From the NCBI GenBank assembly GCA_005778355.1, contig SXON01000112.1, positions 28,636 to 92,635 on the forward strand: a DNA stretch of 64,000 nucleotides. The letters are read 5' to 3'. Of the stretch, positions 27,219 through 35,912 are shown in pieces; within the stretch, counting starts at the first letter, position 1; each line of letters starts with the position of its first letter. The DNA is from Pseudomonadota bacterium (GTDB lineage: Bacteria; Myxococcota_A; UBA796; SXON01). Position numbers and translations under genes: made by a program. The notes beneath the pieces are model-generated. The model saw only the letters and a program-made list of their open reading frames with translations, was not told where the DNA came from and searched no databases.

Positions 27219-27932
27219 ATGACGACAGCGCCAGGCGCGCCGCGCGAGGGACTCTGGGCGCTCCTCCTCGCCGTGGCCGCCGCAGGGTGCGCCCCGGGCG
27301 GCCCCAGCGAGGGTAGCCCGGAGGATGACAGCGCAGGGAACCCGGTCGACAGCGCCGACTCCGCGTCGTGCACGCCGGCCGCAGGCTCCCTCTCCCTGTC
27401 CCTCGGAACGCAGGTGCCCGTCGGGGCGCTGGGGGTCTTCGCTCGGGCCGTGCACCGCGACTCGGCGTTCACGGTGTACTACGCTCAGGGGTCCGTCTAT
27501 CTCTACCAGGCCTTCGACGCGGATTGGGTGGCCACGGGTGGCGAGGCCCAGCTCACCCCGGAGGGGGAGTCCGAGCGCGACCACGCGCTGACCTTCGATG
27601 GCCAGGGCACGTTCCATCTCGCTTCGGTGCGGGGGGAAGACGGCGACCCACCGTCGATGTCGCTGGCGAGGTTCGGCGCCGACAACGTCCGCGTGGGCAG
27701 CGGTCTCACGTACGAAGTGTCCGGGCCCAGCATCGATCCCGTCCTGGCGGTGATCGACGGGCAGGTGCTGGCAGGCACCGAGCATCGCGGCGAGGGCACC
27801 TGGGACGGCAACATGCCGCCCGACGACGAGGTGGAGCGAGGACTCGCCGTGCGGGTGTACGACACGGACCTCGTGTTCTCGCACGAGGTGCGGCGACTCG
27901 CCGACATTCCCGGCGCGGCGGCGCCCGGGTAG
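27219..27932 (+). CDS. Lipoprotein, N-terminal part; ends at in-frame TAG
   Basis: The ATG at 27219 gives a lipoprotein leader ending AAAGCAPGG, followed by an acidic linker. The mature part looks like a beta-propeller (FTVYYAQGSVYLYQAFDADW, ALTFDGQGTFHLASV). The ORF ends at TAG 27930-27932, but the same frame continues open to 28439 with the same protein style, so the product is probably truncated by a nonsense mutation or an assembly error. C-to-T change of CAG would create this TAG. Function unknown. Confidence 0.65.
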   Translation: MTTAPGAPREGLWALLLAVAAAGCAPGGPSEGSPEDDSAGNPVDSADSASCTPAAGSLSLSLGTQVPVGALGVFARAVHRDSAFTVYYAQGSVYLYQAFDADWVATGGEAQLTPEGESERDHALTFDGQGTFHLASVRGEDGDPPSMSLARFGADNVRVGSGLTYEVSGPSIDPVLAVIDGQVLAGTEHRGEGTWDGNMPPDDEVERGLAVRVYDTDLVFSHEVRRLADIPGAAAPG

Positions 27933-28439
27933 TTCTGGGGCCTCGGCTCGGCGCTCGTCGAGGCGGAGGGCTACCGTGTGCTCTTCGCGGCCTCCGCGAT
28001 CGGCGACACCACCCACTTTAGCGATGGCGAGAGCGCCGGCGCGCGACAGATCTTCGCGCTCCGCTTCGACGCGAACCTCGACTTCGTCGACGCCTTCGGC
28101 CCCCTCACCAACACCACCAACGACAACTACTGGAGCACCGGCGCGGTGTTCGACGACGGCTACTACTTCGTGGCGCACACCTACCGTCGGCCGGAGGACG
28201 GGTCGGTGCCGATGCGCGACTCCGGCGGCGTGGAAACCGACGCGGCGAACGTGCAACTCGAAGTGTACAACGCCTGCTTCGACCCGGTCGCGAGCCTCGC
28301 CATCACCGCCTACACCCCCGAGGAGATCGACCTCGGGGGGGGCGCGCACCGAGCGGGCCTCCTCGCCGTCGACGACCGGCTCTACGTGACCTACGACGAC
28401 GGCGAGGCCAGGGTTCGCGAGGTCGTCGTGAGCCGCTGA
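27933..28439 (+). pseudogene. C-terminal part of the same lipoprotein after the in-frame TAG
   Basis: Directly after the TAG the frame reads FWGLGSALVEAEGYRVLFAASAIG and continues with propeller-like repeats (QIFALRFDANLDFVDAFG, ACFDPVASLAITAYTPEE, RLYVTYDDGEARVREVV). Coordinates 27933-28439 are in phase with 27219-27932. No start codon occurs within the first residues. It is treated as the second half of one broken gene. Confidence 0.7.
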
Positions 28440-30407: not shown

Positions 30408-30437
30408 TTGACTCCGGGCGCCCCCCTCGGCTACCGT
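30408..30437 (+). promoter_or_regulatory. Sigma70-like promoter of the giant Asp-box protein gene
   Basis: TTGACT is followed by 18 nt and TACCGT, about 28 nt before the ATG at 30465. GGAGG lies 7 nt before that ATG. This is the clearest consensus promoter seen in the window. Confidence 0.6.
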
Positions 30438-30464
30438 GAGCGCGCCCTAGCCGGAGGCTCACCC

Positions 30465-33400
30465 ATGCAGCGCCCCCCCCCCGCGGCACTTTGCCGCACT
30501 CCTCGTAGTCACTAGCGCCATGCTCGCCCCGGCGAGGGCGAGAGCCGCCTGCCCAGGCGACAGCGATGGCGACGGCTACAGCCTGAGCGGCACCTCGGGC
30601 GGCTGCGTGATCGGCGTGCCCGACTGCGACGACGGCGACGCGAACGTGAACCCCGGCGAGTTCGAGACCCTTTCCGACGGCATCGACAACGAGTGCGACG
30701 GTCGCGACGCGATGGCGCGCTACTTCTCCTCCGGCTTCTTCAATGCGGCCACGTGGCCGGGAACCGGCGTGTTCAGCTACACCGGCGACACGGTACAGGT
30801 GGGCGACCCCGGGGCGTTTGCCCGCTCGACCGTCACCCGCACCGTCGGCATTCCTCGCAGCCGCGGCGCGACGGGCGTGATGGTCGATGTCGCCCTCCTC
30901 ACCGGCCCCGGCTGCACCATCGAGCTCGACACGACCCCGTGGGGCGCGTCGTTCCCGGTGACCACGCACGACGAGCCGCTCATCGCCACGGGCACCAACT
31001 GGATCCCCTTCCCCACGGTGCAACCTCGGCACATCCTGCGCGCCGTCCGCGTGGCGTGCATGAACTTCTCGCGCGCCGAGATCGACTGGATCCAGGTACA
31101 GAACGCCGACGAGGCGATGCCCCCGCCCGCCGACATCACGCTGGCCTGGACCGACACCCGCATGCCCGGCGGCGGCTACATCGAGTCCGTCGTGCGCGAC
31201 GATGGCCTCGCCAACCTGTGGATGGGCACCGACGTGGCCGGCGTGGCCATCGGTGATCGCGACTGGCCCGGGTTCTGGGAGGTCAACAACGGCGCCGGCA
31301 CGTCCTCGCTCATGATGCAGGGCAACCTCGGCGTCGCGGACATGGAGCCCATGGCCAACCCCGACGACGGCGTGTACGTGCTGATGGGCGACGTCACCAA
31401 CCCGGAGGACGGCGACCGGACGCTGGTCGGCGGGCTCTGGTGGACCGGCGACGAGGGCAACACGTGGTCGCAGCTCGGCTCGTCCTGGAGCGACACCTAC
31501 GGTGCCAGCGCGGGCGTGACCTGGGCGGACACAGGCGACGACATCGGCGGCTTCGGCCTCGAGACCAACTGCCCGGGGACGCGTGCCGGCGAGGTCACCT
31601 GGGAAGGCGGCGGCGGGCGGCTGATCCAGGCCGACGACATCGAGCCCGGCGTGCCCGGGCAGGGCGAGGTCATCTACGTGGCCAACGCCGACGACGACGC
31701 GATGGGCGTGTCGATCTACGCGGCGGGGCAGACCTGCGCGCTGCCCAACGACGGGACCGCGCTCCCCGCCGAGCACGTGGGCGCCATCCTGCGCGTCGAC
31801 CTGCCGCTGGGCACGCCCTCGCTGCTCCTTGTGGGCTACCGCGGGCGGGTGAATGCGGGCGAGGGGGTGTACGCCTGCGAGTTGCCCGCGTGGCCGCTGG
31901 ACTGCGCCCTGCCGGCCGGCCTGCGCGCGAACTGCTGGCCCGTCGATGGCACCGACGGGGTCGACGTGCGCGACATCGAGCCCGACACGCTGGCCGAGGC
32001 GCTGGGCGACCTTGCCGTCTACGTGGTGGATGGCGGCACCCGCCCGGTCGATGCCGACAGCGACGGGGTGGGCGACGCGACGTGCAACCACGACGAGTCG
32101 GCGCTCCACCGGGTGGCGCTGGAGCTAGACACCTTCGGCAACGTGGTGGACACCTGGGTGCCCGGGCTCGTGGTCGAGGGCGACATCGACATGCTCTCGC
32201 CCACCACCGACTACTTCATGACCGACGCCAGCATGGATCCCACCAGCGAGTGGGTGTTCATCAACCTCGGCCCGGCCTCGTCCGCCGCGAACTACTTCGT
32301 CGACCGGCTGTACCGCGCCGAGTCGCCCCTGGTGCCGCTGGGCACGGCCACCTGGGAGCCCGTGAACTCCGGCGACCCGGCCACGCCCTTCTCCGACCTC
32401 GACTACTACGAGCGCATCCGGCAATCCGCGAACCTCGACCTCGGCGGCGCCTGGCTGGAGTCCACCATCAACGGCCAGCCGCACTCCTTCCCGGCGCGCG
32501 CCGCCCCCGGCGAGGGACACTCGACCATCTGGGTGGATGGTGCCTTCGGCGACTACGCGGTGGTGTCCGGGTGGGCCAACGCGTGGATGGTCGAGGGGCT
32601 GAGCGCGGGCTGGTACGACGACGAGACCGACCCGGTGGGCACGCCCGACATCGATACCCTCGCCCAGCCCGAGGGCGACGTGGACTGGACGTTCTGGCCC
32701 GACATCAGCCCTGGCTACACCTACCAGACCTTCGTGGCCCACGAGGTGGCGTGGGACAGTAGCGGCACCCTCTGGACCGTCGCCGGCGACCACGGCGTGC
32801 TCCAGTACGACCCGGCCCACTGGCTCGCCACCGGCGAGGGGGCGGCCATCGACTGCCTGTGGAAGGGCTTCCCGGCGGGGTCGGTCACGGTGTCGGTCGG
32901 CCTCGACGGCAGCGTGTGGGCCGGCTTGCTCGACGAGTCGACCTCCGACGGGCGACACCAGATGGCGGTGGTGCGGACGCTCGACCAGGGGGCCACCTGG
33001 GCCTACGCGGGGGCCGGGTACGACTCGGCGTTCATGGACGAGACCACCGGGGAACACTGGTGCATGGACAAGGACTTCACGCACGCGGCCGTCCCGTTCG
33101 ACGCGGGGACGGCCACCTGGCCTGGCTCCCAGTTCTGGGTAGGCATGATCGACCCCATCAATCCTCCGACCGACACCCAGCCCAGCCTTGGCAACCCCGT
33201 CGACGTGCGGGCGCTCGACGCCAACGCCGCGCTGGTGCTCTTCCAGCCCGAGTCGGGCACCGGCAGCCCCGGCGGCCTCTACCTCACGGTGGACGGCGGT
33301 GTCACCTGGGACGCGGTGCCCTTCGACCCGGGCACCGGCACCGTGCCCTGCGACGAGACCCTCACCTGGCAGAAGGGCACCTTCGAGCTGGTCCACCCGG

Positions 33401-34200
33401 GCGGCGAGTACACCTACTGGGTGGAAGACGAGGTCACCGGCGACGTGAGCTGGAGCTTCGACCTGATCTTCTCCGTGGAGCTCGGCACCGTGTACGGAAG
33501 CTACCCGTCGTCCGCCGGGCCCACCGAGTGCTCGCTGGCGCGCATTCTCGTGACCGACGACGGCACGGGACAGCCTCAGGCCGACTGGGACTGGATCCCG
33601 CTGGAGAAGTTCCACGAGTCCGAGAACACTTGCGGCGTGAGCGGCCAGGTGATCGAGGGCGCCACCATCGCCCCGTGGAGCGAGGACATCGTCATCTGGG
33701 GCGGTTACCGCCGCTTCTTCGGCTCCGACCCCTACCAGATCACCACCCGCTACGGCGGCGCCTGCATCATGAACTGGAGCGATCCGGGCGTGGACTACTG
33801 GGGCAGCAGCACCGGCGCCTACGACACCTACACGATGTTGATGAACCCGGCGGTCGACGAGCTGAGCGTGGGCTGGGTGGCGCCCCACCCGGAGGTGGCC
33901 GACCTCTACGCGATCCTGCCCTCGCTCGACCTCGGCACCCGCAAGCAGTGCGAGGTCGTGCGCGACCCATCCACGCACGCCGCCTGTCCCGACTTCCCCT
34001 ACCCCCGCCTCGCCTCGCGCACCGCGCTTGGCGGCTGGACGGTCACCACCCTCGCCACCCACCCGCCATCCGGCCTGCCGATGCACGCCGCGTGGAGCCC
34101 ACTCGGGGTGGCCGACGACCAGGGCGGCAACGGCCACGGCCACTGGCTGGGGGTCGCGCTCGCCGGCAGTGGCGCCTGGCGCGGGGAGGTCCAGTGGTAA
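30465..34200 (+). CDS. Giant secreted Asp-box (BNR-like) repeat protein, out of frame at a C10 tract
   Basis: The track ORF starts at 30520, but a proper start at 30465 has a promoter and GGAGG. If one C is removed from the C10 run it yields MQRPPPRHFAALLVVTSAMLAPARA, a good signal peptide. The mature protein begins with one MopE-type motif (DSDGDGYSLSG...DCDDGDANVNPGE). It then has many propeller-like segments with Asp-boxes (GDEGNTWSQL, LDQGATWAYAG, VDGGVTWDAVP), as in sialidase/sortilin-type propellers. It is probably a secreted or surface protein of about 1,240 aa. The next gene overlaps its stop. Function unknown. Confidence 0.75.
30473..30482 (+). repeat. C10 homopolymer in the 5' coding region (possible contingency tract)
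   Basis: Ten C follow ATGCAGCG. With ten C the frame from ATG 30465 closes at TAG 30513-30515; with nine C (or twelve) it joins the 1,226-aa ORF and forms a signal peptide. A slippage-prone tract of this length at this position is typical of phase-variable genes, but may also be a homopolymer sequencing error. Confidence 0.6.
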
Positions 34201-35912
34201 CGCTGTGGCTACTCCTCGCCGGCTGCCCCCGGGCGGTCGATGAGGAGTCGCGCGACCCGGACGGCGTCGACACGGGCGATCCTGGGGACTCGGCGCCGGT
34301 CGATAGCGGCGACACCGGACCGGACTCCGGGGAGGACACCAGCGAGGACAGCGCCGGGGAGACGGGGGACACCGCGCCCCCCGACGACGATCTCGACGAC
34401 GACGGCTGGACGGCGGAGGGCGGCGACTGCGATGACAGCCGCGCCAACGTGTACCCCGGGGCGCCGGAGGGTTGCGACGCCCTCGACCAGGACTGCGACG
34501 GCGTCGCCATTGCAGACGGAGCGTGCGGGGAGCCGTGGGACCCGGCGGTGTCGGCGTCCTACGTCCTGCTCGGCACCCACGAGGACAGCGGCCTCGAGAT
34601 CCTCGGCGTCAGTGGCCGTGGCACCCCTGAGGACCAGGCGTTCGTTCGCTACGGCTGCGGCCACGCGTCCGGCGGGGGCACCCTCCTGGGTGGTGCCAAC
34701 CTGGCACCCTCGATGGCCGACACCGACCTCCCCTTCTGGTGCAGCGACAACGGGCGGGATTACATCTCGATTCTCCGGGACGCCGGCGACCTTGACGGCA
34801 ATGGCGCGCTGGACGTGGTCACATGGGGCGAGGGTGCACCCGAAACCGGCGAACCGGGCAACGTCTACGTCGTCCCCGGGCCACCGGACTCGTGGTCCCC
34901 GGGCACCCACGACATTCGCGACGTCGCCACCGGATGGTGGACGGACGCCGGCGACCCGGACAAGGTAAACGACGCCCTGTCCGGCGGCGACTTCAGCGGC
35001 GACGGCGTGGCCGACCTCGTGGTGCTCACCGAGACCCCCACCAATGGCATCGATTTCCGGTTCCTGGAGGGCGGACCCGCCGCGCTCGCCTATGGTGCCA
35101 GCGCCACGGACATCGAGCTGGTGGTGACCTCGGAGGAGTACACGGATGGCTTCTCGGGCAACGGAGTGGCCGTGCTCCCCGACGCCGATGGAGACGGCAG
35201 CGACGAGATCGCCTGGCACGACCCCTACGCCGACGAGTCCCTCGGCTCGATACGGGTGATCGAGGGCGAGGAACTCCTCGCCGGGCAGGCCGACATCGAG
35301 GAGGTCGCGGACTGGGGAATCTACCCGGACGCGGGTGGTCGCGAGACGTTCACGAGCCTCAGCGACGGTGCCCACCTCGCGAGCGACCTCGACGGCGACG
35401 GCTATCCCGAGGCGTCGATGCACCTCGCCCTCACCGATGTCGATAGCTACGAGTACGAGATCTGCATCCTCGTCCTCCGTGGCGGGTCCGTCCCCGTCGG
35501 CGACCTCTCGTTGCTCGAGCACGCCAGGCTCTGCCCCACCCGCGCCGACTCGCGATTCTCGGAGCTGCTGTACGCGGCTCGGTGGATCCCCGACATCGAC
35601 GGCGACACCACCAGCGACCTCTACGTCAATCGGTACAGCGACGGCGGCAGCGACCCCGACAACCGCGAGTGTGTCCTCCGCACCGGCGACCTCGCCGCCG
35701 GGGGCGTCTACGACGACTACGAGCCCGACACCCTCTGCTTCCGCGACGAGATCGAGCGCGACGTGTTCTTCACCGACCTCACCGGCGACGGCCTCCCCGA
35801 GTGGATCTTCAGCGAGCCGAGCTACGACAGCCCCGAGTACGGCACAGACTCCGGGCGGCTGCTCATCATGGAAGGCTTCGACATCCCCTTCGACGACCCG
35901 GCCAAGTGGTAG
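34194..35912 (+). CDS. FG-GAP/VCBS lipoprotein with one MopE motif (572 aa)
   Basis: The GTG at 34194 overlaps the upstream stop, has GGAGG 4 nt upstream, and gives VVTLWLLLAGC, a lipoprotein leader. An Asp/Ser/Thr/Gly linker and one MopE motif (DDDGWTAEGGDCDDSRANVYPGAPEGCDALDQDCDG) are followed by FG-GAP repeats (DAGDLDGNGALDVV, GGDFSGDGVADLVVL, LPDADGDGSDEIAW, ASDLDGDGYPEASM, IPDIDGDTTSDLYV, FTDLTGDGLPEWIF). It is coupled to the giant Asp-box gene, so the two products may act together at the surface. Ligand unknown. Confidence 0.8.
   Translation: MVTLWLLLAGCPRAVDEESRDPDGVDTGDPGDSAPVDSGDTGPDSGEDTSEDSAGETGDTAPPDDDLDDDGWTAEGGDCDDSRANVYPGAPEGCDALDQDCDGVAIADGACGEPWDPAVSASYVLLGTHEDSGLEILGVSGRGTPEDQAFVRYGCGHASGGGTLLGGANLAPSMADTDLPFWCSDNGRDYISILRDAGDLDGNGALDVVTWGEGAPETGEPGNVYVVPGPPDSWSPGTHDIRDVATGWWTDAGDPDKVNDALSGGDFSGDGVADLVVLTETPTNGIDFRFLEGGPAALAYGASATDIELVVTSEEYTDGFSGNGVAVLPDADGDGSDEIAWHDPYADESLGSIRVIEGEELLAGQADIEEVADWGIYPDAGGRETFTSLSDGAHLASDLDGDGYPEASMHLALTDVDSYEYEICILVLRGGSVPVGDLSLLEHARLCPTRADSRFSELLYAARWIPDIDGDTTSDLYVNRYSDGGSDPDNRECVLRTGDLAAGGVYDDYEPDTLCFRDEIERDVFFTDLTGDGLPEWIFSEPSYDSPEYGTDSGRLLIMEGFDIPFDDPAKW

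Follow-up and report, generated by a model that had tools for sequence, protein, structure and literature searches.

Does a run of ten cytosines just behind a start codon switch the gene of a large secreted protein on and off in an uncultivated bacterium? Most known contingency loci come from host-adapted pathogens. The gene in question lies in a 64,000-nucleotide stretch of contig SXON01000112.1, referred to here as the window, and an earlier note on this DNA had read its 5' end as such a locus. Homopolymers at the 5' ends of genes have been proposed in general, for poly-A/T, to act as reversible switches, and poly-C is generally under-represented (PMC2831843); in Campylobacter, poly-G/C tracts peak at lengths of 9-10 (PMC6321876), and in gonococcal pilC a poly-G tract lies in the signal peptide (Jonsson 1991, as described in PMC13190605).

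The start of the secreted-protein gene

The C10 homopolymer, the proposed slipped-strand switch, occupies positions 30473-30482 (+ strand) and is a repeat of slippage-prone length within the 5' coding region, where homologs carry runs of 7-14. As the earlier note had stated, the start of the secreted protein is frameshifted: the frame of the ATG at 30465 ends at a TAG (30513-30515) after 16 codons, a mini-ORF (30465-30515, +) which would be the OFF product, and the body lies one frame over, at +1 relative to that ATG. The body frame is without stop codons from 30451 onward (1,249 codons) and also carries the signal peptide, whose core RHFAALLVVTSAMLAPARARA (30484-30546, +) is the same peptide in the two closest copies described below. 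From the first in-frame ATG at 30520 the body runs for 1,226 codons to a stop at 34198-34200 (30520-34200, +). When the sequence was re-read with one C removed, the ATG at 30465 was joined to MQRPPPRHFAALLVVTSAMLAPARA and the body, as had been claimed, and the length of the tract sets whether start and body share a frame.

Upstream of the tract, a putative promoter block of TTGACT (30408-30413), an 18 nt spacer and TACCGT (30432-30437) is kept on the + strand (30408-30437) in three homologous copies, and a Shine-Dalgarno sequence GGAGG (30453-30457, +), placed 7 nt before the ATG, is conserved in the two closest copies. The tract, start, GGAGG and stop are located where the earlier note had put them, and its TTGACT/TACCGT boxes are present; a sigma-70 consensus scan did not score this block as a promoter.

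The single C-run is weak evidence. At the composition of the window, 0.68 C10 runs are expected per 64 kb and a C10 was present in 40 of 100 shuffles; hence the run is not significant through composition and by itself proves nothing. Codon usage alone would also produce a run of at least 9 in 22% of cases for the proline-containing signal peptide. The significance lies in the position of the run and its recurrence among homologs.

Recurrence of the tract among homologs

Two copies are closest to the window gene. One, 78% identical over 321 nt, sits where contig C185 of the window's genome ends; there ATGCAGCG precedes C9T, and the frame is offset as in the window. The other is the ortholog in G014 (public MAG contig VGRQ01000014.1, recorded as Deltaproteobacteria bacterium isolate M_DeepCast_65m_m2_104), which has a C8 tract and 65-66% protein identity to the window protein. 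When the three 5' ends were aligned, the net length change between start and signal peptide fell in the tract. The signal-peptide sequence R(H/Q)(F/L/V)AALLV(V/A)TS(A/T)MLAP was conserved in a single frame only, and this frame is joined to the gene's own ATG in none of the three copies. Judged from the sequence, these OFF genes are still gene-like (66% identity, dN 0.28 and dS 0.55 against the G014 copy).

A search of 63 genomes of the order with a 13-member alignment found homologs in 13 genomes, none of them outside the taxonomic family to which the window belongs; the window's genome had up to 10 matches. Of the 5' ends that were read, 17, from six genomes, have 7-14 consecutive C or G no more than 30 nt past the start codon (the window's genome supplies six, G016 four, G014, G019 and G012 two each, and G021 one). 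Frames were called from the best start, with a Shine-Dalgarno sequence where present, and the plus-strand copy of G014 was re-read by hand. Three of the 17 are in frame (the minus-strand copy of contig C185, and the copies on contigs C248 and C2) and 14 are out, with both wrong frames represented; the G016 copy on contig C178 could count as in frame if translation began at a poorly placed TTG. The GTG of the G014 plus-strand copy does not share the frame of its signal peptide, and a second frame change near the 5' end sets the body in a different frame from the signal peptide. Five other homologs are without the tract, and in three of these the signal peptide is preceded by an ATG that is in frame with it.

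The comparison of tract lengths in relatives that the earlier note had proposed therefore revealed no fixed length: C10, C9T and C8 in the closest copies, and 7-14 with all three frames across the family. Length varies with the flanks conserved, both between species and between paralogs. An ortholog pair in the same divergent arrangement comprises a C9 copy in frame (ON; contig C185, minus strand) and a C7 copy out of frame (OFF; G014, plus strand); the paralogs on contigs C248 (in frame, ON) and C195 (out, OFF) show a single-nucleotide difference at the tract; and the copies on contigs C17 and C30, 89% identical over the aligned stretch, have internal tracts of C11 and C10, respectively.

A conserved alternative start downstream, which the earlier note had named as counter-evidence, was not found: no conserved start lies in frame between the tract and the hydrophobic core, and most homologs are without any, the copy G019:C10 (a GTG) being a possible exception. 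A GTG at L009:2776 was rejected as the in-frame start of the C185 copy, as it sits upstream of the Shine-Dalgarno sequence and the window copy has a TAG at 30448 in the corresponding frame.

The bodies behind these starts are intact. Sixteen homolog bodies, comprising 56,952 nt, contain neither a C/G run of at least 8 nor a stop codon, and the bodies remain intact in OFF copies. Within the bodies, CCC encodes 46% of the prolines, and each of the five PPP stretches includes at least one other proline codon; hence the run itself, rather than the prolines, looks maintained.

A short inverted repeat, for example GCGGCA..TGCCGC, lies directly 3' of the C-run in the window (30483-30497) and in the copies of C185, G014, C86 and C2. 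The repeat could result from conservation of the peptide, or it could aid slippage.

Slippage as a probable switch and the alternatives

Taken as sequence evidence, the length differences between homologs, the intact bodies and the missing conserved downstream start support the layout proposed in the earlier note, and we consider it likely that the locus is a translational contingency locus operated by DNA slippage in the poly-C tract. DNA polymerase would gain or lose C's by slipping; a tract length that places the ATG at 30465 in frame with the signal peptide would turn the gene ON, so that the big protein is made and exported, and with C10 as assembled translation would end after 16 codons, leaving the gene OFF. 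As paralogs and homologs have separate tracts at this position, the set of secreted propeller proteins expressed would differ from cell to cell, and the uncultivated bacterium probably switches the whole family on and off by random slippage in C-runs. The rate and reversibility of slippage, co-silencing of the lipoprotein encoded downstream, the surface location and the role of the protein are parts of this model that we infer.

Several findings count against a contingency locus. The proportion out of frame (14/17) is somewhat above the two-thirds expected under random phase, the dN/dS of 0.5 is not strongly purifying, and the host genomes are fragmented MAGs. MutS1 is intact in 11 of 11 genomes of the genus, which rejects loss of mismatch repair as the cause, and hypermutability would therefore have to come from tract length alone.

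The same drift of a long homopolymer through all frames with bodies intact would fit transcriptional slippage, in which RNA polymerase stutters on the C-run and the resulting mixture of mRNAs yields some full-length protein at any DNA length. This is unlikely, as the bacterial cases in PMC1088944 involve A or T runs (an analysis limited to A/T) and as it does not predict the long intergenic tracts described below, whereas DNA slippage would cover both these and the coding ones. An error in sequencing or assembly of the homopolymer, with the real tract in frame, has to be weighed for any MAG assembly, homopolymers being error-prone with some technologies. However, such errors must recur at one site in several independent genomes, with different lengths and some copies in frame, and other G7/G8/C7 runs in the window lie in intact frames; since independent genomes show mixed lengths with intact homolog bodies, a uniform error is highly improbable.

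Still less can be said for the two remaining explanations. Programmed +1 ribosomal frameshifting at CCC codons would agree with the common +1 offset of the C10 and C9T copies and with the inverted repeat that follows the tract in several copies, but the shift would have to run the other way in four homologs and be absent from three, and with neither direction nor site conserved this mechanism was rejected as scarcely credible. Decay of pseudogenes fixed OFF by a neutral slip would account for most copies being out of frame and for the second frame change in the G014 plus-strand copy; it is extremely improbable given that bodies out of frame with their starts, the longest reaching about 1,300 codons, are free of stops and retain residues invariant across the family.

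DNA slippage at the tract would place this locus closest to a known gonococcal system: its layout is most like that of pilC, as far as pilC is described in the source cited above. In pilC1/pilC2 of Neisseria gonorrhoeae, too, a homopolymer in the region coding for the signal peptide switches the export of a large surface protein by frameshift, and paralogs are present. That tract is poly-G and the protein an adhesin of pilus biogenesis, in contrast to poly-C and a protein combining a MopE motif with propellers here; switching was directly proved in the pathogen, whereas in the uncultivated bacterium it is predicted. With the Campylobacter phasome the locus shares G/C runs in many genes per genome (PMC6321876). 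A literature search for phase-variable, Deltaproteobacteria and homopolymeric together found no precedent for a deltaproteobacterial MAG lineage. Both the lineage and the protein family are new for such a locus, as is the conserved position of the tract across paralogs.

The encoded proteins and other tracts in the genome

In the window protein, Pfam identified only a MopE-type metal-binding motif (PF11617; 30622-30708, +; E 8e-8), and a sequence search of solved structures matched significantly only that stretch, to MopE of Methylococcus (2vov), with which the protein has this motif of about 30 residues and nothing else in common. Among 13 family members, Pfam found MopE in 11, with weak BNR and Sortilin matches in one member each, and NCBIfam gave one weak glycosylhydrolase match. 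The AlphaFold2 model of residues 65-1226 (pLDDT 75, pTM 0.79) is predicted to adopt the tandem beta-propeller fold of GH74: the top twelve Foldseek hits were GH74 xyloglucanases (E 5e-16 to 1e-12), among them PDB 5fkt, 4lgn and 5jwz, with target-normalised TM-scores of 0.61-0.69. Identity is only about 12%, neither Pfam nor NCBIfam gave a GH74 sequence-family match, and the N-terminal MopE motif is additional. The segment GTDVAGVA, with its conserved Asp, resembles one in GH74. From the predicted fold we infer that the secreted protein may bind or degrade glycans.

A lipoprotein gene follows (34194-35912, +), whose product has an LLLAGC lipobox and a MopE motif and matches FG-GAP below threshold. 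Its GTG start at 34194 makes the two genes share 7 nt (GTGGTAA, ending in the stop codon of the big gene), and a GGGGAGG of its own stands 4 nt ahead of that start. Homologs lie directly 3' of many family members, marking it as a conserved partner, and the co-switching suggested by the earlier note could plausibly occur by coupling or polarity. Elsewhere in the window, an in-frame TAG at 27930 interrupts an otherwise continuous lipoprotein gene (about 27219-28439); the two halves share one frame, hence a point nonsense change and not a slip.

The survey of further tracts covered 38 tracts on contigs C1-C143 together with those met through homologs. A pattern search for ATGC..C9 across the taxonomic family returned many matches that are not gene starts, so these counts were left out of the argument. 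The window's genome also has C-runs of 9-16 at the starts of further genes for secreted proteins or lipoproteins, in frame on contig C33 and out on C86, C109 and C129, and others lie in the C-region of a signal peptide (C43), in a lipoprotein linker (C60), within three more paralogs (C17, C30 and C121) and in intergenic positions. In relatives, 5' C-runs are in frame at L170 and L192 and out at L180 and L182. C10 counts are high throughout the genus and patchy across the order.

We give slightly less than even credence to the idea that a free-living deltaproteobacterial lineage has a combinatorial phasome, in which many paralogous secreted proteins of GH74 fold, with lipoprotein partners, would each have their own poly-C switch. 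If so, a clonal population would hold many surface or enzyme repertoires at once, possibly to counter phages or protists, or to exploit varied substrates. The presence, in an uncultivated metagenomic lineage, of a multi-copy family whose C-run keeps its position but varies in length suggests that stochastic variation of secreted proteins extends to free-living bacteria, and the switching hypothesis is directly addressable with existing metagenome reads.

Other sequence features were observed alongside. The paralogs at L093, L115 and L123 each contain a poly-C tract around residue 100 of the protein that is out of frame. Runs of C13-C16 at L092, L098, L107, L113 and L116 are apparently intergenic or near promoters, and it is possible that they are transcriptional switches. 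The palindrome GTCGCGAC is enriched in the window, at 25 places (e.g. 30701-30708) against 7.4 expected, a count reached in none of 100 shuffles, and TCGCGAC is seen repeatedly close to poly-C tracts, and 5' of TAC-type -10 boxes, on other contigs.
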